DNA of 64,000 nt from Sulfurimonas sp. Its GTDB lineage: Bacteria > Campylobacterota > Campylobacteria > Campylobacterales > Sulfurimonadaceae. The position numbers and the translations under genes are program-made. Location: NCBI RefSeq assembly GCF_026988655.1, contig NZ_JALSKT010000014.1, positions 1 through 64,000 of the forward strand, written 5' to 3'. Under the pieces are notes generated by a model. It searched no databases. It was given only the letters and a program-made list of their open reading frames with translations, and was not told the DNA's origin. Each line of letters starts with the position of its first letter. Within the stretch, counting starts at the first letter, position 1. Below are positions 1,142 through 14,395 of the stretch, piece after piece.

Positions 1142-2497
1142 ATGAAATATCTCTTATTCTTAAGCCTGAGTGTTATCTGCCTACAAGCGATGACCTTAAG
1201 CGAGACTGTTGATTATGCTTTGCAAAACAACAATGCTCTCAAACAAACTAATGTCAGCAGTGAACGTTCAAAAAGTGTACGCAGTGCAAAACAGGCACAA
1301 AAATATGGTCGTGTTGATGTCATAGCATCCTATGATCACTACAATCTATCAAGAACACTCGCTCCCTTGACACCGATGTCTATAGTAGGTTCCCCTGATG
1401 GTGCTTACACAATTCCAACAACACAAGACCTTTTTACTACAGGTATTGCTTACAACGTTATCCTTTTTAATGGATTTGCCCAACAAAGCGCTTATAAAAT
1501 TTCAGACTTGCAATACCAGTCTTCTCTTATAAAAAGAAAACTTGCACGTGAAGAGCTTATTTATAATGTTCGTACGCTTTATCTCTCTTTACTCGCTCTT
1601 GAAGAACAGCTAAAAGCTCAAGGACTTTACACTCAGGCACAAAGCCAATTAGTGCTGAAGATACAAAAAGGACGTGAACTTGGAAGCAAATCAAAACTGG
1701 ATCTTCTTCGTGCACAAAACAGTGTAGCAGCAAGTTTAGCTCAAGAAAATACAATGGGGGCAAATATTGATATCCTCAAAGCAACACTCTCTGCCCTGAT
1801 GGGAAATAAAACTTTTAATAAAACAGAACCACTCACTATTACAATGCCAAAGTCAAAATCTTTTGTGATTGAAGAGTCAAATATCACCTCTTTAAAGCGA
1901 TATCAAGCAACTAAAATCAATCAAAAAGTAAATGCAAAAAAGCGTGATCAAGCAAAATCCAGTTACTACCCAGTGATTGATTTTGGAGCCTATTACGGAC
2001 AAAACTTTGGTCCAAATGACACGACAAACAGCGTTCCACCAACTAGCACCGCCCCATCTGCTGGGACAACTGTTCTCAAAGAGGGAGATTACAATAGTGC
2101 TGAGATTTGGCAACTTGGAGTGCATTTAAAATGGAATGTCTTAGACTTTGGTTTAAGCAGATCCAAAAATGAAGAAGCAAAACTTGCCTATTTGGAGTCA
2201 CAACTACAAAGTGCTGGTGTGGCAATCGAAGTTCGTAAAAATCTTCTCATCGCACACAACAAAATCAAACTTGCAGTTGCAAAGTATAAAAGCGCTGCAT
2301 CCCAATATGCACTGCTAGACGAAACAAGTAAAATTGAGCAAATCCGTTATGATAACGATGCGCTTACAATCACTGACTTACTTGCAACACGTGCAAAAAA
2401 AGAGATAGCTTATGCACAAATGATCGATGCAAAATATAGCTATCAAAAAGCTTTATACTATTTAGACTACTTACTCGAAAAGGGAGAAGAAAAATGA
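1142..2497 (+). CDS. TolC-family outer-membrane efflux channel
   Basis: 451 aa, with a signal peptide of about 16 residues (ends LQA) and no lipobox. Two OEP repeats are visible, each a long alpha-helical hairpin rich in Ala, Gln, Lys and Leu; the typical start LSETVDYALQNN follows the signal. It forms the outer-membrane duct of a tripartite RND pump. It overlaps the adaptor gene by 4 nt (ATGA), so the operon is tolC-adaptor-pump. GGAG at 1128-1131 is the likely ribosome-binding site. A 6-bp inverted repeat, TAAGCT (1092-1097) and AGCTTA (1121-1126), in the upstream gap may be a regulator site, but that is weak. Substrate is unknown. Confidence 0.9.
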   Translation: MKYLLFLSLSVICLQAMTLSETVDYALQNNNALKQTNVSSERSKSVRSAKQAQKYGRVDVIASYDHYNLSRTLAPLTPMSIVGSPDGAYTIPTTQDLFTTGIAYNVILFNGFAQQSAYKISDLQYQSSLIKRKLAREELIYNVRTLYLSLLALEEQLKAQGLYTQAQSQLVLKIQKGRELGSKSKLDLLRAQNSVAASLAQENTMGANIDILKATLSALMGNKTFNKTEPLTITMPKSKSFVIEESNITSLKRYQATKINQKVNAKKRDQAKSSYYPVIDFGAYYGQNFGPNDTTNSVPPTSTAPSAGTTVLKEGDYNSAEIWQLGVHLKWNVLDFGLSRSKNEEAKLAYLESQLQSAGVAIEVRKNLLIAHNKIKLAVAKYKSAASQYALLDETSKIEQIRYDNDALTITDLLATRAKKEIAYAQMIDAKYSYQKALYYLDYLLEKGEEK

Positions 2498-3555
2498 AAA
2501 AAATACTAATACTCGTCATTGTCATCGCGATTGTAGCTACGGCAGGGCTTTTTTTAAAAAGTCAAAAGAAAGCAGTTCAAGAGTTGCCTATAGCTAAGGT
2601 GTATCATTACAATGTAGAAACTGTAAAACCAAGTACAAAAACACTCCAAGAGACAAGACATTTTCTAGCACAATTACTTGCTAGCAAGAGCGCACTCATC
2701 GCCTCAAAGTTTTCAGCTCAAATAAAACATATTTATGTCAAAGAAAATGACATCGTAAAAAAAGGCCAGCTCCTTATAGCTTTAGATGATGCAGAAATCA
2801 AAGCTAGTATTGCCTCTCTACAACAACAAAAACGAGCACTGAGTGCAGATGTTAAAAATGCTAAAAGAACCTTACAACGTAATAAAAAACTCCTAGAAGC
2901 CGAAGCAATTTCAAAAGAAAAGTATGACGCTTCTTCTGTTTTATACCAAAATAAATATGCTGCATTACAAACTACAGATGATAAAATAAATCAACTCCAT
3001 GCACAAGCCAAATACCTAAATATCACTGCTCCTTTTAGCGGACGTGTAGGAAGCGTTCTTGTTGATGCAGGCAATCTTGCCGTACCGGGAAAACCCATAA
3101 TCTCTTTAAATTCAGATGACCAAAAACTCATCTTTTCTTATATCCAAACATCTAAGCCCATTGTCCAAGGGCAGACCGTACTTATAAACAACAAAGAGAT
3201 AGGTCAAGTGACTCGCTGTTATGATGATGCTAAAAATGCCATGCTAGTAGCGGAGATTAAACCATATAAAGCACTTGCATATGCCAACAAATCTTTTATA
3301 AACATTGATGTAGTTGTTGACAAAGCAACAGGCTGTGCAGTACCATTAAATGCTCTACTCCATCGTAAAAAAGAGACAGTTTTGATGGTCTATAATAAAG
3401 GTCAATTTCAATCTTTTAATGCAGACATTATCCTACAAGATAATCAAAATGCCATACTAAGAGAGTGTCCTACACAAGCAGTAGCAACTGCTGCTGAGGC
3501 AAAGCTAGCACTTTTACCTACACTAGGTAAGATGACTATAACTGAGGCTGAGTAA
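2494..3555 (+). CDS. RND efflux periplasmic adaptor (HlyD/MFP family)
   Basis: 353 aa. A single N-terminal membrane anchor or signal (residues about 4-22) is followed by a lipoyl-like half-motif around residues 78-100 (HIYVKENDIVKKGQLLIALD), a coiled-coil hairpin at about 100-160, the second lipoyl half (ITAPFSGRVGSVLVDAGN) and a beta-barrel domain. It bridges the inner-membrane pump and TolC. No Cys lies at the expected lipidation position, so it is probably anchored by the N-terminal helix. The pump gene begins immediately after its stop codon. Confidence 0.9.
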   Translation: MKKILILVIVIAIVATAGLFLKSQKKAVQELPIAKVYHYNVETVKPSTKTLQETRHFLAQLLASKSALIASKFSAQIKHIYVKENDIVKKGQLLIALDDAEIKASIASLQQQKRALSADVKNAKRTLQRNKKLLEAEAISKEKYDASSVLYQNKYAALQTTDDKINQLHAQAKYLNITAPFSGRVGSVLVDAGNLAVPGKPIISLNSDDQKLIFSYIQTSKPIVQGQTVLINNKEIGQVTRCYDDAKNAMLVAEIKPYKALAYANKSFINIDVVVDKATGCAVPLNALLHRKKETVLMVYNKGQFQSFNADIILQDNQNAILRECPTQAVATAAEAKLALLPTLGKMTITEAE

Positions 3556-6500
3556 ATGAAAAAATCATCTTCATGGGTAGAAGCCTTACTCAAAAGACCC
3601 TACTTTATTTACTCTTTTTTAACTCTGTTTATATTTTTAGGGATTGTTGGCTACCAAAAGATTGACCGAAAACTATTTCCAGACTCAAACTATCCTACTG
3701 TAGCAGTTGTTATAGTCAACCCTGGTGCTTCTGCAAAGACACTTGCATCAAATGTTAGCGTACCAGTAGAAGAGGAGCTTTATACTCTGGATAAAATTCG
3801 TCGTGTTTATTCTACAACCATCGATGAAGTAAGTGTTATTAATGCCGAATTTGAATACACAAAAGGGATAGATGCCGCAACAAGTGATGTCAGTAATGCT
3901 CTTGATAAAATCAAATCTATCCTCCCTTCTTCGATTTTAGCTCCACAAATTTTACAAATCACCTCAGCAACTGCACCTATTATTACCATAGCTGTTAGTT
4001 CTAAAAATGGTGTTGCACTTGAAGATATCCGCCAACTTGCACAAAATCAAATCAAGCATGATTTGATTAAGCTTGATGGCATTGCAAATGTTGATATTTT
4101 TGGTGGTTACGATAAAGAACTTCAAATCATTGTAGATAAAGAAAAACTTGACCAATATGGTCTTGACATTAGCCGTGTTATGGCTGTTATTCGCAGTAAC
4201 AACAATGACTATGCAATAGGATTTATCAACTCTCAAAAAGATCGTTACTTACTCAAAGCCAATGGGAAAAGAGATAGTATCGCTGCATTGAAATCTATGA
4301 AAATCACAAAAGATATCACCTTAAATGACATTGCAAAAGTTTATTTTGGACACTATGAAAATTCCTCACTTTACTTTGGGAATCAAAAAGAGGCCATTGC
4401 TATTGCTGTTCAGCGAGGTAATGATGCTGATGTTGTGAAAAGTATAGAAAAAGTAGAAGCAGAGCTTGAAAAACTAAAACAAAAATATCCAAAATTGAGA
4501 TTTGAGATTACAGATACACAAAAAGATACTATCATACAAAGCACTTCAAATATGTTTGAGTCCTTACGTGATGCTATCGTTATGTCCACTATCATTGTTT
4601 TTTTCTTTTTAGCAAGCTTTCGACAAGTACTCGTCGTCCTTGTGACCATTCCTATTGTCTACATGGCGACTATCGCTTTAATGTGGATAGTTGGAATCGA
4701 GTTTAATGTTGTCACGCTAACTGCTATTATTTTAGCCCTTGGTCTCTTACTAGATGATACCGTTGTTGTGATGGAAAACATCGAACGCCACTACAAAGAG
4801 GGGCATGATGAAATTCATACAGCAGTTTTTTCAGGAACAAAAGAGATTATGTTTGCTGACCTTTCAGGAACACTTACAACGATGATAGCACTCTCACCTA
4901 TGCTTTTTGTTGGTGGTTACCCCCAAACTGTCTTTCAACCCCTCGTTGGAACACTTCTATTGGCACTAGCAGCTTCATATATTGTTTCTATCTCTGCTGT
5001 ACCACTACTTTCATTGAAGATATTAACAATACAACACCCCTGGGTAGTTAAGTCTGAAGCTTTTTTTGAAAAATTTGTAGGCCCATTCAATCTTGCTATT
5101 AGTCGTTTTTTCGCAAACGCAGTCACGCTAGCACTTGAACATAAAACTGCAGCAGTCGCCTACTTTGTTGTTTTACTCTTTATGTTTATCACAAGTGTAA
5201 AAGGTGTTATGCCAACAGTCGGGCAAGAACTTATGCCACCAATGGATACGGGTGGAGTAAAAATCTCTATCAATGTCGACCCCAATCTTCCAGTAGAAGC
5301 AAGTGAACAAATAGTAAAAGAAGCAAATGCTATCATAGCAAAACATGGAGAACTTCTTTACCTCTCTAGCGCCATAGGCTCTGAAGCTGGAGTGATGAGT
5401 ATTGGAAGTGGTAGTGGGATTGACCATATCGCTATTACCGCAACATATGTTGACCGCTACAAACGTAGTGAGAGTATTTGGGATATAGAGAAAAAACTTC
5501 GCGAAGAACTTGCTCATATTCAAAATGTAAATTCGATTGATGTTGTAGATTATGGGGCAACTGCCCTTGCAAGCATTCGTGCAAATATTGATGTAACACT
5601 CTCAGGACCAAACTTTGCAGACCTTGAGCGTGCAGGAGAGATGATAGAAAAAGCAATGCGTCAAACACAAGGGCTTGTCTCTGTCTCTAAAACATGGGAA
5701 AACAACAAACGTGTATTTAACCTTGAGATCAACCAAGAGCGTGCTTCTTTTTACGGTTTAAGCAATGCAGAAATCATTCGTCAACTTCAGGTCTACATTC
5801 GTGGTGCAAAAGTTGGCTCTTTTGCTCTGCAAAATAGTAAAGATTTTGATATTCGTGTTTGGGTAGACGAAGCCAAACGTAACAATGTAAAAGAGTTAGG
5901 CTCACTCCTTCTTACTACACCAAAAGGAAAAGTTCCTCTCTTAGGGGTCGCTAACATAAGCACGCTAACAGAACCTTCACTTATAACAAGAGAAGGCTTA
6001 AACTATACGCTTAACGTATATGGTTTTAGAGAAAAAGCGGCCATCTCTCATATCATGGCAAACTTTGAAGAGCAGGCAAAAGATATTGTCCTTCCAGATA
6101 GTGTTACAATGGAGCAAACAGGAGATATAAAACAGTTTAAAAGTTCTGCTTCTCGTATGATTGGGGCAATAGGGTTTGCTCTTGTTTTGATATTTTTCAC
6201 TTTAATTACACTCTTTAATTCTGTGAAAATTTCCTTAATGATTCTTATCTCAATTCCTCTGACAATCATTGGAGCATCTTGGATGATGTTAGGGATGCAC
6301 TATCACACTTCTATGCCGGCAATGATGGGATTTATCTTACTCTCAGGTATTATCGTAAATAATGCCATACTTCTTATCCATTTTGCAATTGAGAAAATGC
6401 AAGCAGGCATGAGTAAACGTGAAGCGATGTTTGAAAGTATCCGCATTAGAACAAGACCAGTACTGATGACTGCGTTTGCAGTATCTGCTGGTATGTTGCC

Positions 6501-6660
6501 TGTTGCTATGGGTTCTGCCATAGGTCTTGAAAGGCTTGCCCCTTTAGGTGCTGTAGCTATAGGTGGTCTTATCGTAGGTACTTTTCTTACACTTCTTTTC
6601 ATTCCTTTGGTGTTTATCTGGACTGTACGCGAAAATGAAATGCTTGAGGAGAAATATTAA
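3556..6660 (+). CDS. RND-family efflux pump, inner-membrane permease
   Basis: 1034 aa, the usual RND length, with two repeats of TM1 plus a large periplasmic loop plus TM2-6. The first loop starts IDRKLFPDSNYPTVAV, as in HAE-type pumps. TM4 carries the proton-relay pair Asp-Asp in LLLDDTVVVMEN; TM10 reads GIIVNNAIL, so the AcrB Lys940 equivalent is Asn, as in many non-AcrB RND pumps. The AcrB-like layout points to organic compounds rather than metals, but this is not certain. It is the last gene of the tolC-adaptor-pump operon. The first uptake-like 9-mer of the window occurs only at 5115. Confidence 0.92.
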   Translation: MKKSSSWVEALLKRPYFIYSFLTLFIFLGIVGYQKIDRKLFPDSNYPTVAVVIVNPGASAKTLASNVSVPVEEELYTLDKIRRVYSTTIDEVSVINAEFEYTKGIDAATSDVSNALDKIKSILPSSILAPQILQITSATAPIITIAVSSKNGVALEDIRQLAQNQIKHDLIKLDGIANVDIFGGYDKELQIIVDKEKLDQYGLDISRVMAVIRSNNNDYAIGFINSQKDRYLLKANGKRDSIAALKSMKITKDITLNDIAKVYFGHYENSSLYFGNQKEAIAIAVQRGNDADVVKSIEKVEAELEKLKQKYPKLRFEITDTQKDTIIQSTSNMFESLRDAIVMSTIIVFFFLASFRQVLVVLVTIPIVYMATIALMWIVGIEFNVVTLTAIILALGLLLDDTVVVMENIERHYKEGHDEIHTAVFSGTKEIMFADLSGTLTTMIALSPMLFVGGYPQTVFQPLVGTLLLALAASYIVSISAVPLLSLKILTIQHPWVVKSEAFFEKFVGPFNLAISRFFANAVTLALEHKTAAVAYFVVLLFMFITSVKGVMPTVGQELMPPMDTGGVKISINVDPNLPVEASEQIVKEANAIIAKHGELLYLSSAIGSEAGVMSIGSGSGIDHIAITATYVDRYKRSESIWDIEKKLREELAHIQNVNSIDVVDYGATALASIRANIDVTLSGPNFADLERAGEMIEKAMRQTQGLVSVSKTWENNKRVFNLEINQERASFYGLSNAEIIRQLQVYIRGAKVGSFALQNSKDFDIRVWVDEAKRNNVKELGSLLLTTPKGKVPLLGVANISTLTEPSLITREGLNYTLNVYGFREKAAISHIMANFEEQAKDIVLPDSVTMEQTGDIKQFKSSASRMIGAIGFALVLIFFTLITLFNSVKISLMILISIPLTIIGASWMMLGMHYHTSMPAMMGFILLSGIIVNNAILLIHFAIEKMQAGMSKREAMFESIRIRTRPVLMTAFAVSAGMLPVAMGSAIGLERLAPLGAVAIGGLIVGTFLTLLFIPLVFIWTVRENEMLEEKY

Positions 6661-6677: not shown

Positions 6678-8066
6678 ATGCACTCTCTTAGTATTTTCGG
6701 AACAAGTTCTGATGCAGGCAAATCTACGCTTAGTTTTGCTCTGACCTATCTCTTGCATCAACGCGGCATAAACGCAGTCCCTTTTAAAGCACAAAATGTC
6801 TCTAACAATTCACAAGTTACTGATGATGGCGGAGAGATTGCCATCCCTCAGTTTTTTGCAGCGGAGGCGATAGGGATTCCTACTTCTGTTTTGATGAACC
6901 CTATCCTCTTAAAATCTGCTGGCGAGTCAAAAGCACATATGATACTCAATGGCAAGAGTGTTGCTCAAAAAGATGTTTGGGAGTATTATCGTGATATTGA
7001 CACACTCAAACCTATCGTAAAAGCTGCCTTTAACACTCTTAAAGAAGAGTATGAGTGCATTGTTGCTGAGGGTGCTGGATCTCCTGTAGAACTCAACCTC
7101 ATGGACAAAGACCTCTCAAACATTTATGTAGCCAAAGAGTTTCATACAAAAATCATCATCGTAGCCGATATTGAGCGCGGCGGTGTCTTTGCTTCCATCT
7201 ATGGTGTTTATAATCTTCTACCAAAAAAACTGCAAAAAAATGTCATCGGTGTTATCATCAACAAGTTTTGCGGAGATATGCGTCTTTTTGATGAAGGTGT
7301 TTCTATCATAGAAAAAGATTTTGGCATAAAAGTCCTTGGGGTTGTGCCATATAAGCCTTTAAATCTCGGTTTTGAAGATGCCCAATCCCTCATAAACTAC
7401 AAACAAGACACAAAAGCATCCATCATCACAGTCGGTGTCATTCAGCTTCCACATCTTAGTAATTTTACAGACTTTGAGCCACTTATAGCTGACAAAGAGA
7501 TAGCACTGCGTTTCATCTCAAACGCAGTAGAAGCATATAGCTGTGACCTTATCATACTCCCAGGAAGTAAACGTGTTATAGATGACTTAGCTTGGCTTCG
7601 TGCAAATGGATTTGAGAAGATACTCACCTCAAAAAAGACAAATATCATCGCAATTTGTGGTGGCTATGAGATGATGTTTGAGCACTTAATAGATAAGGAT
7701 AGTGTAGAATCTGAGAAGACAATCACAGCTGGATTTGGACGCTTTAAGGGTAATGTTATTTTTCAAAAAGAGAAGACAGTCAAAAAAGGCTACTACAATC
7801 ACCGTGGTATCATCACTCCGGGATATGAAATACACAATGGTATAACCAAGAAAAATGCAAAAAAGAAAAAGAATCTTTACGGCACATTTGTTCATGGGAT
7901 TTTTGAAAATGATGCACTGCGTTTGAAAATCTTCAATAAAATAAATCCAAGCTACAAAGGCTATAATTTCCAAGATTTCAAAACGAAAACAATTGAAGAC
8001 TTTACAAATCACATCGATAAACATATAGATATGAACTACATTATTAAAGAGTTACAAAGGAACTAA
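6678..8066 (+). CDS. cobQ: Cobyric acid synthase CobQ/CbiP
   Basis: 462 aa. Amidates four side chains of adenosylcobyrinic acid a,c-diamide using glutamine and ATP. The N-terminal dethiobiotin-synthetase-like domain begins with the P-loop FGTSSDAGKST (residues 7-17), followed by PFKAQNVSNNS, a CobQ signature. The C-terminal class I glutamine amidotransferase-like domain has the nucleophile in AICGGYEMM and a His in GTFVHGIF. It is followed, with 3-bp and 1-bp gaps, by a degenerate-deformylase fusion gene and a CobT-like gene, suggesting co-transcription. No cobalamin riboswitch fits in the 17-bp upstream gap. The loop-assembly genes cobUSC lie 31 kb away. Confidence 0.93.
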   Translation: MHSLSIFGTSSDAGKSTLSFALTYLLHQRGINAVPFKAQNVSNNSQVTDDGGEIAIPQFFAAEAIGIPTSVLMNPILLKSAGESKAHMILNGKSVAQKDVWEYYRDIDTLKPIVKAAFNTLKEEYECIVAEGAGSPVELNLMDKDLSNIYVAKEFHTKIIIVADIERGGVFASIYGVYNLLPKKLQKNVIGVIINKFCGDMRLFDEGVSIIEKDFGIKVLGVVPYKPLNLGFEDAQSLINYKQDTKASIITVGVIQLPHLSNFTDFEPLIADKEIALRFISNAVEAYSCDLIILPGSKRVIDDLAWLRANGFEKILTSKKTNIIAICGGYEMMFEHLIDKDSVESEKTITAGFGRFKGNVIFQKEKTVKKGYYNHRGIITPGYEIHNGITKKNAKKKKNLYGTFVHGIFENDALRLKIFNKINPSYKGYNFQDFKTKTIEDFTNHIDKHIDMNYIIKELQRN

Positions 8067-8069
8067 ACC

Positions 8070-8879
8070 ATGATACGAGATATAATAAAATACCCAAAGA
8101 CTCCTAGTTTGGAGTTTGGCGCAAATGTAAGACATTTTAATCAAGAGCTTTTTGACTTGATTCAAGATTTAAAAGATACCATTCAAGCCAACACTCTTGA
8201 CGCCTTAGCTGCGTTTCAGATAGGCTCACCACTCTCTATCATTGTGCTTAAACAAGAAGATGGTAGTTATCTTGAGATAATAAATCCAAGAATTATCAAA
8301 CGAGAAGGCACAGTTGAACCCATAGAAAGAACAGCCTATTTTCCAGGTCTCAGTGCAAAAACAAAACGCTATGAAAAGATAAAACTTATCTATGAAGATA
8401 GAAATGGTGAGCAGCAGTTTTTAGATGCAGGGGGAGAGCTTTCCATCACACTTCAAAGAAAACTAGACTATGTTTTTGGTTCAAGTTTCATTGTGCGTCT
8501 TGATGAAGAGGAGAGAAAAGTTTTTGATGCTAAACTCGAAAATGGAACAGATGCCATCACAAACAATGGCTGTCCGACTGTTTTTAAAAGAGATAGCATC
8601 CTCAATCTTATCAAAGGTATCTTTGTTATCTCTCTTCTTGCTTTAGCTGGAGCATTCTTTTTAAGTGATGCAAACCTCGCACTATTAAAAACGGCAGAAG
8701 AGTACTCGATGATAACACTGTTACTCCTCACAACTATCTACTTTTTCTACGCACAGTACGAAGGAAAATTGTATAAAAACTGTTCTTCTTGTCAAGTAGG
8801 CAATATCATCGGAGTCACAGCCATAACTCTAGCAAAAATTCTCGTGCTTTTTATAGCAAATTATTTTATTCTTTGGTAA
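8070..8879 (+). CDS. Degenerate peptide-deformylase domain fused to a membrane domain
   Basis: 269 aa. Residues 1 to about 150 follow the order of peptide deformylase motifs: LDALAAFQIG matches GxGxAAxQ, YFPGLS sits where EGCLS should be, and LQRKLDYVFG where QHExDHLxG should be. The metal-binding Cys and both His, and the catalytic Glu, are all replaced, so deformylase activity is not expected. From about 185 come three hydrophobic segments with NCSSC between the second and third. It lies between cobQ and a CobT-like gene with 3-bp and 1-bp spacings, so a role tied to cobalamin synthesis or lower-ligand handling is plausible. The deformylase relation is my reading of motif order; the membrane part is unrecognised. 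Confidence 0.65.
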   Translation: MIRDIIKYPKTPSLEFGANVRHFNQELFDLIQDLKDTIQANTLDALAAFQIGSPLSIIVLKQEDGSYLEIINPRIIKREGTVEPIERTAYFPGLSAKTKRYEKIKLIYEDRNGEQQFLDAGGELSITLQRKLDYVFGSSFIVRLDEEERKVFDAKLENGTDAITNNGCPTVFKRDSILNLIKGIFVISLLALAGAFFLSDANLALLKTAEEYSMITLLLLTTIYFFYAQYEGKLYKNCSSCQVGNIIGVTAITLAKILVLFIANYFILW

Positions 8880-8880
8880 G

Positions 8881-9957
8881 ATGTCATCAAAAAGAGATAA
8901 TTTGAAAACATATAATATACTAACAAACAAACAAACTTCCCTTCCAAGTGGTAGAGCTGACTTTTTACTTGCTGCTTCTGTAACAAAGACTTGTGAGATT
9001 GAGGGCATCACACAAGCGGGTATTCCCGGGATGATTCCTCTTACGCCAACACTTGATGCTGAGTATATTAGCAATGAAAAAGTTTTTTCACTCGGTGAAC
9101 TTGCTGAGACACCTACAGGTGTTCCCTCTCCTGCTCTTATTACCCGTGCTACACACAATTTAGCTGCGTTTAGCTCTATTGAGATTTTAGATTTGGGTTT
9201 ACAAACACAGCCACAAAACTGCACTCTTCACCATTTTGACATCAAACCTTCAGAGGCTATTAACAGCGGTGCGAACATAGATGCAAAAGAGATTTTTAGT
9301 AAAGGCATGGCATTTGGGAGAAGTTATGAACTTAGGGGCAACTATCTTATCTTAGGAGAGAGTACTCCTGCTGGTACAACAACGGCAACAGCTTCAGCTC
9401 TTGCACTTGGTTATGACTGCGCAAATGATTTTTCATCAAGTTTTTTAAATGTTCCAAACGACATCAAAACAAAGACCATAAACGCAGCACTAAAACATCT
9501 TGATGAACGTATGGATAACTTTGAAAAGTTGAGTATAGTCAGTGACAATATGCTTCTTTTTTGTGCTGGTTTTTTAGTAGAAGCCTCAAAAAGATTTCAA
9601 ATAGTTCTCGCTGGTGGAACACAAATGGCAGCTGCTCTTCTCATAGCTGATGCACTTAGAGAAGATATCTTGATGCGTATCAAACATGACAATGTTATGC
9701 TTGCAACAACGCAATGGGTAGCACAAGACAAACATTCCAATATCAAACATATTTTAGAACAACTTAGCTACACTCCAAACGCAGTCTATACAACTTTTAG
9801 TTTTGCAAATACCGAGATACCTATACTCAAAAAATATGATGAGGGTGAAGCGAAAGAGGGTGTTGGCGCAGGTGCAGCGCTTGGCTATGCCACTTCTCAT
9901 GAGATAACAACTGAGCAACTCTTAGAGCAGATAGAAATACTCATCTATTCTCTATAG
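8881..9957 (+). CDS. CobT-like nicotinate-nucleotide phosphoribosyltransferase (TIGR00303-type)
   Basis: 358 aa. It resembles the archaeal/cyanobacterial-type CobT family (UPF0284), with the Gly-rich GESTPAGTTTATA near residue 160 and LAGGTQMAAAL near 240. The predicted role is activating the lower-ligand base to its ribotide before attachment to cobinamide. The ATG follows the preceding stop codon by one base, so it is probably translationally coupled. It completes a three-gene unit with cobQ and the pseudo-deformylase. No standard CobT is seen in the window, so this may be the functional replacement; family assignment is by motif recognition only. Confidence 0.75.
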   Translation: MSSKRDNLKTYNILTNKQTSLPSGRADFLLAASVTKTCEIEGITQAGIPGMIPLTPTLDAEYISNEKVFSLGELAETPTGVPSPALITRATHNLAAFSSIEILDLGLQTQPQNCTLHHFDIKPSEAINSGANIDAKEIFSKGMAFGRSYELRGNYLILGESTPAGTTTATASALALGYDCANDFSSSFLNVPNDIKTKTINAALKHLDERMDNFEKLSIVSDNMLLFCAGFLVEASKRFQIVLAGGTQMAAALLIADALREDILMRIKHDNVMLATTQWVAQDKHSNIKHILEQLSYTPNAVYTTFSFANTEIPILKKYDEGEAKEGVGAGAALGYATSHEITTEQLLEQIEILIYSL

Positions 9958-11608: not shown

Positions 11609-14395
11609 CTAAGATCGTCTTCGCCTTGAATGTACATAGTTTTTCTTAAAACATGACTGACAAATATTGTACTTTGAATTAAGCGGGAGCACTTTAGAAC
11701 AGAGTTTACAACTTTGTGCTAGCTGCGTTTGATGCAAAGAAAATTCTATGTACCTGTTTAAAACGCCTCTGTATTGTCTCGCTTTTTGTTCATCAATAAA
11801 GTACTCATCAAATCTATAACTCAACCACAGATACAGAGATATCTCTTTAACCATATCCTCAGCACGTAACAACTCTTCAGAAGTTCTAGCAGACGACCCA
11901 GCTAATGTTGGAGCCATATAATGCACCGGCTCTTTTCTCTCTAAGGACTCGATATAACGCTCATAAGCGCTGATAATATAAGGCGATTTCAGCGTCAGTG
12001 GTGCACAAGCGAGATGGTACTTCGTAGCAATATCGAGATCATAGGCATCAACAATCTTAGAGGCTTCAAGCATATCATCTAAAGAAGCTGCATAAAATGG
12101 TCCATCAAAAACCATATTTTTAATGAAAAAGTGTAAAATCTCTTCTAATGAGTTCTCTTCCAAAATTTTTGAAACAAGCTTGATATGCTCTAAACTTGCC
12201 ATAACTTTAAAAGGAATGTGTATCTCTTTAGCTTTTTTTACAAAGTTTTTTTTGACGACTTTTAAAGCCTCTTCATTTAAAGCCCCAACATAACCATTTT
12301 CATGTAAGCCATAACGCCCTGCACGCCCTGCTATTTGATGGATTTCTGAAGGAAAAAGTTTACGTTGCATAATGCCGTCAAATTTTTCTGCTTTTGAAAA
12401 GAGTACTGTTTTGATGGGAAGATTCATCCCCATGGCAATGGCATCTGTTGCAACAAGTATCTGCGTTTCACCCTCACGAAAACGTCTGGCTTCTTCACGT
12501 CGTACTTCAGGAGAAAGGTTTCCATATACCACACTCACTTCAAAATCTTTTGAGAAGTTTTGTTTGAGTCTGAGCACATCTTTACGACTAAAAGCGACGA
12601 TGGCAGTTCCAGCTTCAACATCTTTTGGCTGCGTAGCAGTCTCTAAAAGTTCAAGCGGATTTTTTCTCTCAAATTCTATGATCTCAAGCTCTTCGCCAAG
12701 ATACTCTGCAAGGGCGACAATGGCATCTTTGACATTGGGTGAACCTGTCATAATGACTTTTTGTGCTGGCGCACCGATGATGGCATTTGCCCATGCCCAA
12801 CCTCTGTCACGGTCATCTATCATCTGCACCTCATCAATCACACAAACATCTACATCCGCTTCATAATTCATCATCTCAATAGTTGAGCTTATATGCGTAG
12901 CTTCATCATCAAGTATCTGCTCTTCTCCTGTGATAAGCGAACTCTCAATCCCCTTAGCTTTAAGTGTTTCATAGCCCTCAAGTGCGAGTAAACGCAATGG
13001 AGCAAGATAGTAGCCCGTGTCTGCTTCTTCAAGACTTTTCATCGCAGTGTAGGTCTTTCCACTGTTGGTTGGTCCTATGTGCAAAACCAGTTTTCTTTGC
13101 ATACTTCGTGCGATTGGAAAGAGGTTTTTAAAGTCACGTATAGTCCGAGCTAAAAGCTCTTGTTTTTGCTTTTTAATCAATTCATCATGGATAGAATGCA
13201 CAAAACGACGCAGGATTTTTTTCTGAATTTTTTGTGTTATATTTAAGCTTTTTGGCATAAGCTCTAGTAAAAACTCATAGACCCTGTTGTGAAGTTCTTC
13301 TTGAGAAAAATGCAGAAGAGTTGAGTACTTTTCACACTCTTGAATAAGCTCTGTAAGTGAGCGTAAAAACTCCTCTTCATGCTCTTTTTTTACCTCATCT
13401 AAAACAGCATCAAAGTTAAAACGCCGGGAGTTCCATATCTCCTCAAGCAAACCCTCAAGCTCGATATGCAGCTCCAAATTGTACTCCATCTCTATTTTCG
13501 AATATGGAAGTGTTAGCTTTTGTGTTACTTTTAAAAGCATCTCTTCATCATGAAGTTCTACATCATCTGCGTTTATCTTCTCTCTTACTATATCTTTGAG
13601 AACCCTCTGACTTATCAAAGGATAAGAAACTTTTAGTTTTGGCGGGGATGCCCGAAGAGAGTCAACTATCTGTTTTGTTGTAAGATAAGCATGTGGGTAT
13701 TTCAGCGAAGCGATAAAATTGTCGATACTCTCTTGCTTTTGCGCAACTATCTTTAGCTTATCATTCCCTATCCTCTCTACTATCTCTTCAAACGCAGCTT
13801 CTTCTAAAAACTGATACTCATAAGGCTTTGTGTTGAGTGTCAAAATCTTATGAAAATTTTGATCATAGACTTTGTATCTCAGTGAAGCGTTAAACTCAAA
13901 TGAGTCATCAATATCAAAAAGTCCTTCAAGTTCTCTCTCTAAATGTTCCTTTTTTATCTCAAAACGAATATGTCGCAGAGATGATTCCATCTTTAAAATC
14001 GTAATTTTTTTACTTCTGACATTCGCATACGCTTCATGCAAACGCACGGCTTCTTCTTTGTTTACATCCAACTCTTCAAGTAGCGCTTCTATCTTCGCTT
14101 CTCTATCAAAACCAACTTCTACCTTTGGCTTATCTGATTTGTAAATACGCCCATTACTTTCAAAAAAATGCAGGATATCTTGACGCATAGCACTCTCGGC
14201 TTCGCTCCATATCATACGCAAAGTTTTTACCATCAAATCTTTGTTATGTTCTATGTCATAAATCCCAAGCGCAGCAAAAAGTTCACTGAGTGTTGTACTC
14301 TCAACCCGCTGGATCCCTACATCAAAAGGGTCATCATCAAAATATATACGGATACGTTGATTTATCTTGCTATTTTTTTTATTTTTTCTTGCCAT
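11609..14395 (-). CDS. Suv3-like DExH-box RNA helicase
   Basis: 928 aa. A long N-terminal alpha-helical region (residues 1-430, unrecognised) precedes the helicase core: motif I HIGPTNSGKTYTA (about 440), LAPLRLLALEGYE, motif II VIDEVQM, motif III MTGSP and motif VI QIAGRAGRYG. The GPTNSGKT loop and APLRLLA block are typical of mitochondrial Suv3, the helicase of the RNA degradosome. The C-terminus carries a four-Cys zinc-ribbon-like motif (CKLC, then CQSC 16 residues later). Such helicases are present in some alpha- and epsilonproteobacteria. Likely role: RNA unwinding in decay or ribosome work. The gene stands alone; its upstream gap contains a MITE-like element. Confidence 0.88.
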   Translation of the reverse strand: MARKNKKNSKINQRIRIYFDDDPFDVGIQRVESTTLSELFAALGIYDIEHNKDLMVKTLRMIWSEAESAMRQDILHFFESNGRIYKSDKPKVEVGFDREAKIEALLEELDVNKEEAVRLHEAYANVRSKKITILKMESSLRHIRFEIKKEHLERELEGLFDIDDSFEFNASLRYKVYDQNFHKILTLNTKPYEYQFLEEAAFEEIVERIGNDKLKIVAQKQESIDNFIASLKYPHAYLTTKQIVDSLRASPPKLKVSYPLISQRVLKDIVREKINADDVELHDEEMLLKVTQKLTLPYSKIEMEYNLELHIELEGLLEEIWNSRRFNFDAVLDEVKKEHEEEFLRSLTELIQECEKYSTLLHFSQEELHNRVYEFLLELMPKSLNITQKIQKKILRRFVHSIHDELIKKQKQELLARTIRDFKNLFPIARSMQRKLVLHIGPTNSGKTYTAMKSLEEADTGYYLAPLRLLALEGYETLKAKGIESSLITGEEQILDDEATHISSTIEMMNYEADVDVCVIDEVQMIDDRDRGWAWANAIIGAPAQKVIMTGSPNVKDAIVALAEYLGEELEIIEFERKNPLELLETATQPKDVEAGTAIVAFSRKDVLRLKQNFSKDFEVSVVYGNLSPEVRREEARRFREGETQILVATDAIAMGMNLPIKTVLFSKAEKFDGIMQRKLFPSEIHQIAGRAGRYGLHENGYVGALNEEALKVVKKNFVKKAKEIHIPFKVMASLEHIKLVSKILEENSLEEILHFFIKNMVFDGPFYAASLDDMLEASKIVDAYDLDIATKYHLACAPLTLKSPYIISAYERYIESLERKEPVHYMAPTLAGSSARTSEELLRAEDMVKEISLYLWLSYRFDEYFIDEQKARQYRGVLNRYIEFSLHQTQLAQSCKLCSKVLPLNSKYNICQSCFKKNYVHSRRRRS

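Follow-up and report, generated by a model that had tools for sequence, protein, structure and literature searches.

The locus and its neighbours

What does a gene resembling peptide deformylase (PDF), but stripped of the residues that catalysis requires, do between two cobalamin genes? The question is raised by a stretch of 64,000 nucleotides from Sulfurimonas sp. (assembly GCF_026988655.1, contig NZ_JALSKT010000014.1, positions 1-64,000 of the forward strand), which we call the window. The gene occupies positions 8070-8879 of the forward strand, as do all its features given below, and encodes 269 amino acids. It belongs to a family of more than 100 loci, common across Campylobacterota. We refer to it as dPDF, a short name for a catalytically dead PDF homologue carrying a C-terminal CxxC membrane domain. 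An earlier note, made from the letters of the window, had described the gene as wedged between cobQ and a CobT-like gene, and this is indeed its position. The cobQ/cbiP gene for cobyric acid synthase (6678-8066, +; NCBIfam NF001989, E = 3e-138) ends 3 bp upstream, and a gene for a CobT-like NaMN-dependent phosphoribosyltransferase (8881-9957, +) starts 1 bp downstream. The latter matches NF003372 (E = 1e-103) and PRK04447, and scores 234.5 bits against TIGR00303, for a cut-off of 240. Elsewhere in the window, an ORF (80-793) that by eye resembles an alpha-type carbonic anhydrase, with a signal-peptide-like start, precedes the RND efflux operon at 1142-6660, and the reverse strand encodes a protein of 928 amino acids (11609-14395) that by eye resembles a SUV3-like helicase with a CxxC zinc-ribbon-like C-terminal tail.

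Deformylase fold and dismantled active site

We first consider what remains of the deformylase. Residues 3-149 match Pfam PF01327 with an E-value of 9.2e-27 (94 bits, cut-off 22.8). The AlphaFold2 model, built from an alignment of 54 family members, has a pLDDT of 83.4 and a pTM of 0.54, so that the relative orientation of its domains is uncertain. Its residues 1-159 align to the H. pylori PDF 2ew5 with Z = 20.3 and an rmsd of 2.5 Å over 158 residues, which delimits a PDF-like domain at residues 1-157 (8070-8540), predicted to be cytoplasmic. The comparison with Def that the earlier note had proposed thus recovers the deformylase fold. Relative to Def (PF01327, TIGR00079; H. pylori 2ew5, E. 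coli 1dff), dPDF is alike in fold over residues 1-162, in the order of the motifs, and in Q50, E86, Q129, D133 and G137. It differs in having neither metal ligands nor the catalytic Glu, in the added three-helix CxxC domain, and in scores that miss the NCBIfam deformylase equivalog cut-offs by a wide margin (TIGR00079, 56 against 103.95 bits; NF009484, 59.6 against 190). It also has a branch of its own: the family is set apart from the host Def proteins with 100/100 support by a branch of 1.49, a separation to be read with caution, as long branches meet at this point of the tree.

The alignments to 2ew5 and within the family show what has become of the active site. The former motif I (residues 43-50; 8196-8219) retains Q50, and its Gly has become A45. 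The former motif II, EGCLS in active enzymes, reads E86-R87-T88-A89-Y90 (8325-8339) and has lost the metal-binding Cys to T88. The former motif III, QHExDH, reads Q129-R130-K131-L132-D133-Y134 (8454-8471), where R130 and Y134 replace the two His and K131 the catalytic Glu. These replacements are nearly fixed: among 91 distinct family members, the former Cys position is Thr in 89 and Cys in none, R130 and K131 are each found in 90 and Y134 in 89, and E86, Q129 and D133 are present in all. A metal ligand is kept in none of the 91, and the R/K pocket is lost in a single divergent member (L031). The earlier reading, of PDF motifs in their usual order with the three ligands and the catalytic Glu replaced, therefore agrees with the Pfam match, the model and the family alignment, and the gene product is almost certainly a dead PDF.

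Loss of catalysis would also be expected of a neutral, pseudogene-like relic without function. We regard this as the least credible of the explanations considered, since the frame is open in nearly the whole family, second copies are retained in several genomes, and the 30 invariant columns of the 54-member alignment already indicate purifying selection. Of the 21 positions of the PDF domain conserved at 97% or more, 10 fall among the 20 positions of the former motifs (hypergeometric p = 1.7e-5); the pocket has thus been rebuilt rather than abandoned. The near invariance of the substituted residues and of the cysteines described below speaks for a repurposed pseudoenzyme rather than for decay.

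Could dPDF nonetheless deformylate, using another metal site or acting on another substrate? The fold is retained and, according to a survey of accessory deformylases (PMC12690207), motif substitutions need not abolish activity. Yet in 91 of 91 members the metal ligands, without exception, and the general base have been consistently replaced, and the window genome has a separate, canonical deformylase (contig C48, 166.8 bits). We rejected this reading on the residues and consider it highly improbable. Among the closest parallels are the type 3 accessory PDFs of S. aureus and S. pneumoniae, which that survey characterises by replacements within motifs I and II and presents as inactive or weak. 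Like them, dPDF is a motif-substituted PDF paralogue beside a functional Def; unlike them, it has motif III replaced as well, fully and conservedly, and it shows a membrane fusion and a linkage with sulfide:quinone oxidoreductase (SQR). No membrane-fused or SQR-linked form appears in the passages of the survey examined.

Membrane domain and conserved cysteines

The three-helix membrane part with a CxxC, which the earlier note had placed behind the PDF domain, was also recovered. The structure models predict transmembrane helices at approximately residues 179-198 (8604-8663), 209-230 (8694-8759) and 247-266 (8808-8867). C168 (8571-8573) stands immediately ahead of helix 1, and the CxxC, C238-S-S-C241 (8781-8792), lies in the loop between helices 2 and 3. 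All three cysteines are present in 91 of 91 members of the main family set. The mean of K+R minus D+E is above zero ahead of helix 1 and again in loop 2, but below zero in loop 1. This charge pattern fits an N-in, C-out topology, which would put the CxxC on the cytoplasmic side together with the PDF domain.

Outside the main set, three divergent members (L165, L170, L172) have lost C168 and kept CxxCQ. In another genome (G263), a CxxC membrane protein of 98 amino acids without a PDF domain is encoded directly after SQR and pep54, the short peptide introduced below (L163, 3051-3347). Its homology to dPDF is weak (profile E = 1.1e-6), and it is possibly a minimal form of the membrane domain. Given these two observations, the CxxC helix pair looks like the core of the protein and the PDF domain like an accessory.

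DsbB/VKOR-type proteins are quinone-linked CxxC membrane proteins, and dPDF resembles them in having a small helical membrane domain and a CxxC near a quinone enzyme. It departs from them in that its CxxC is predicted to be cytoplasmic. The membrane domain modelled separately (pLDDT 87) returned generic three-helix bundles alone in the structure search, with no interpretable fold match.

Linkage with SQR and pep54

We then analysed the neighbourhoods of 80 dPDF loci obtained by a pattern scan of GTDB genomes, in which all taxon-titled dPDF records are from Campylobacterota. Two neighbours recur: a flavoprotein of about 489 amino acids and a hydrophobic peptide of about 54 amino acids, hereafter pep54. 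The flavoprotein aligns to the A. aeolicus SQR 3hyv with an E-value of 1.2e-38 and is, on this comparison, an SQR homologue. The three redox Cys are aligned as well, a likeness to the flavoenzymes of known SQR modules; for Sulfurimonas, PMC7952632 lists the types II-VI. The gene order is SQR, pep54, dPDF, with median gaps of 24 and 69.5 bp (34 loci), and SQR lies directly upstream of dPDF in 50 of the 80 loci. For 70 of the 87 dPDF genes in a survey of 398 genomes of the phylum, SQR is no more than 1.7 kb away and always on the same strand.

The conserved membrane peptide pep54 (consensus ..RTCxIWQFIRFxxINIKMLVVVxKSH; for example L120, 4047-4196, and L174, 4752-4916, both on the reverse strand) follows SQR directly in most genomes surveyed and is commoner than dPDF. 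It has no match in Pfam or NCBIfam. We considered whether its Cys might be a thiol that pairs with dPDF, and discarded the idea as uninformative: this Cys is present in 92 of 112 matches and is lost in some genomes with dPDF. A literature search, in a coverage that excludes most subscription journals, found neither a description of an SQR module that includes pep54 or a PDF-like protein nor a paper combining 'Sulfurimonas' and 'peptide deformylase'. A search of plasmids found dPDF on one, from Sulfurovum; a search of viral contigs found no relative, and we rejected a phage origin on that ground. On a plasmid of Sulfurovum mangrovi, the trio carries the RefSeq labels 'FAD-dependent oxidoreductase', 'hypothetical protein' and 'peptide deformylase'. 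The annotation divides the dPDF of this plasmid (L175, 7497-8312) into two neighbouring 'peptide deformylase' genes, an apparent frameshift or split gene.

In Sulfurimonas, dPDF is often followed by a hybrid histidine kinase, at a median distance of 12 bp in 36 loci, and then by a response regulator. This arrangement is what one would expect of a membrane sulfide or redox sensor, whose CxxC would perceive sulfane sulfur or the quinone state and signal to the adjacent cytoplasmic kinase and its regulator. However, the linkage is limited to part of the family: in Sulfurovum and other families the trio occurs without the kinase (L029-L032, L078, L097, L173), and the kinase remains with SQR where dPDF has left (G000, G026, G163). 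Hence, sensing is unlikely to be the core role.

Co-occurrence across genomes

The association with SQR extends from neighbourhoods to gene content. All 79 genomes of the phylum survey that encode dPDF also encode SQR, 32 have SQR alone and 287 have neither (Fisher exact test, 1e-57, a statistic that ignores kinship); three very weak profile matches (E from 1e-6 to 4e-5) were left out as dPDF. The absence of dPDF from 32 of the 111 genomes with SQR implies that it is dispensable for SQR. Within the genus, 26 genomes have both, none has dPDF alone, 2 have SQR alone (both only 79-82% complete) and 9 have neither. The latter also lack pep54 and are scattered on the Def tree, which is based on one short gene. 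Among 60 near relatives, dPDF is nested within the genomes with SQR, with the single exception of G057, where dPDF is divided over contig ends and SQR has no match at E ≤ 1e-40.

To account for phylogenetic dependence, we used supported independent pairs. In about 4.4 of the 7, SQR and dPDF change together, and in none do they change in opposite directions; the corresponding value for joint change of CobT and dPDF is about 0.1. The phylogeny-corrected test gives p between 0.0625 and 0.25, the pairs being too few for significance. Taken with the linkage, the association between dPDF and SQR is well supported.

A relocated copy in the cobalamin cluster

How, then, did the window copy come to lie in a cobalamin cluster? 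The earlier note had taken the gene for a maintained member of that unit, with a product that possibly binds a cobamide intermediate or a lower-ligand base, or anchors CobT at the membrane. The tight cobQ-dPDF-cobT arrangement of the window favours this, as does the adjacency of dPDF to cobT in G034 (L033) and in one further MAG (L094/L098). A cobalamin setting is restricted to these two genomes and that of the window. Occurrence away from cobalamin genes, named beforehand as the observation that would speak against the idea, is the rule: only 3 of the 80 related loci, from 2 genomes, are near cobQ or cobT, against the 50 behind SQR. The survey of co-occurrence with CobT (TIGR00303) found no association either. 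Among the 60 relatives, 20 genomes with dPDF have CobT and 11 do not, against 16 and 13 of those without dPDF (Fisher exact test, p = 0.6).

The window genome itself shows where the gene is missing. It encodes both SQR (C36:4225-5691) and pep54 (C36:4047-4196), on a contig other than that of dPDF, in the order SQR, pep54, histidine kinase, response regulator. Nothing lies between pep54 and the kinase: the slot of dPDF is empty, and the copy between cobQ and cobT is the only one in the genome. In G026 and G163, too, the SQR-kinase-regulator locus lacks dPDF, which is encoded at another place in the genome. Near relatives of the window genome have the same cobalamin genes without the insert, as cobQ-cbiB-cobT-MCP (L222) or cobQ-cobT (L213), which indicates that dPDF moved in. 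In G029, it is the SQR-pep54 pair that lies between cobQ-cbiB and cobT, together with a gene for a catalase-peroxidase-like protein of 720 amino acids (L138, 1654-9563), and the gap looks like an insertion hotspot. The window dPDF is thus a relocated copy, its cobalamin setting is late and secondary, and cobQ and the CobT-like gene are neighbours by relocation. Distribution, synteny and the uninserted relatives led us to reject a cobalamin role, to which we assign a very small probability. We instead regard it as highly probable that dPDF works with SQR.

In the dPDF tree, the window copy falls into a second clade (support 100/99), often found at loci with MerR (12), AhpD-like (12) or DsrE-like (9) genes, possibly a sulfur or redox stress group. 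In G163, this second kind of site is only 7.4 kb from SQR. In one example (L166, 2599-4742), dPDF lies beside genes for a MerR regulator and an AhpD-like protein; at other loci the clade also occurs with a DsrE-like protein that has a signal-peptide-like start.

Proposed role

SQRs make zero-valent sulfur and reduce quinone at the membrane. dPDF would contribute a dithiol, invariant in the main set and predicted at the membrane face, and a pocket that is basic and free of metal. The simplest reading is thus that it accepts sulfur or electrons from SQR, or else keeps SQR and pep54 in place. As a whole, we give a probability of about 0.5 to the explanation that dPDF is a pseudoenzyme in an SQR-pep54-dPDF sulfide-oxidation module, its CxxC handling sulfane sulfur or electrons. 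The PDF-like domain would stay cytoplasmic, and the refilled pocket (R130, K131, T88, Y134, E86) would dock SQR, pep54 or a peptide. At the membrane face, the CxxC on the cytoplasmic side, joined by C168 in most members, would accept sulfane sulfur in the form of persulfide or polysulfide, or electrons, from SQR and then hand them onward. A thiol relay as the specific mechanism is a tentative proposal. Equally speculative is the more precise version in which this deformylase-derived pseudoenzyme is a third subunit of the SQR system, with a former peptide pocket to which SQR, pep54 or polysulfide would dock, and a CxxC at the cytoplasmic face that would collect zero-valent sulfur.

The same genomic linkage could also reflect a factor for the assembly, anchoring or stability of SQR. 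The dead PDF would recognise a peptide or an N-terminus of SQR or pep54, the helices would serve as anchor and the CxxC would be structural, holding a metal or a disulfide. The PDF fold originally binds nascent N-termini, the former active site is metal-free yet highly conserved, and pep54 is itself short and hydrophobic. On the other hand, a structural role alone leaves unexplained the invariance of the CxxC and its retention in the 98-residue protein without a PDF domain, and 32 genomes have SQR without dPDF. We consider this a minority prospect, though a better one than sensing.

Significance

Sulfurimonas and other Campylobacterota play a major part in the oxidation of sulfide at vents and redoxclines (PMC7952632, PMC9122950). 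The acceptor of the sulfur from their SQRs is unsettled in the literature examined, and dPDF and pep54, which travel with SQR, would be direct candidates. The automatic label 'peptide deformylase' masks the repurposing of a housekeeping enzyme fold as a membrane pseudoenzyme, and would inflate counts of accessory deformylases. If dPDF is indeed a third subunit of the SQR system, it would add a new type to the membrane proteins that transfer sulfur.
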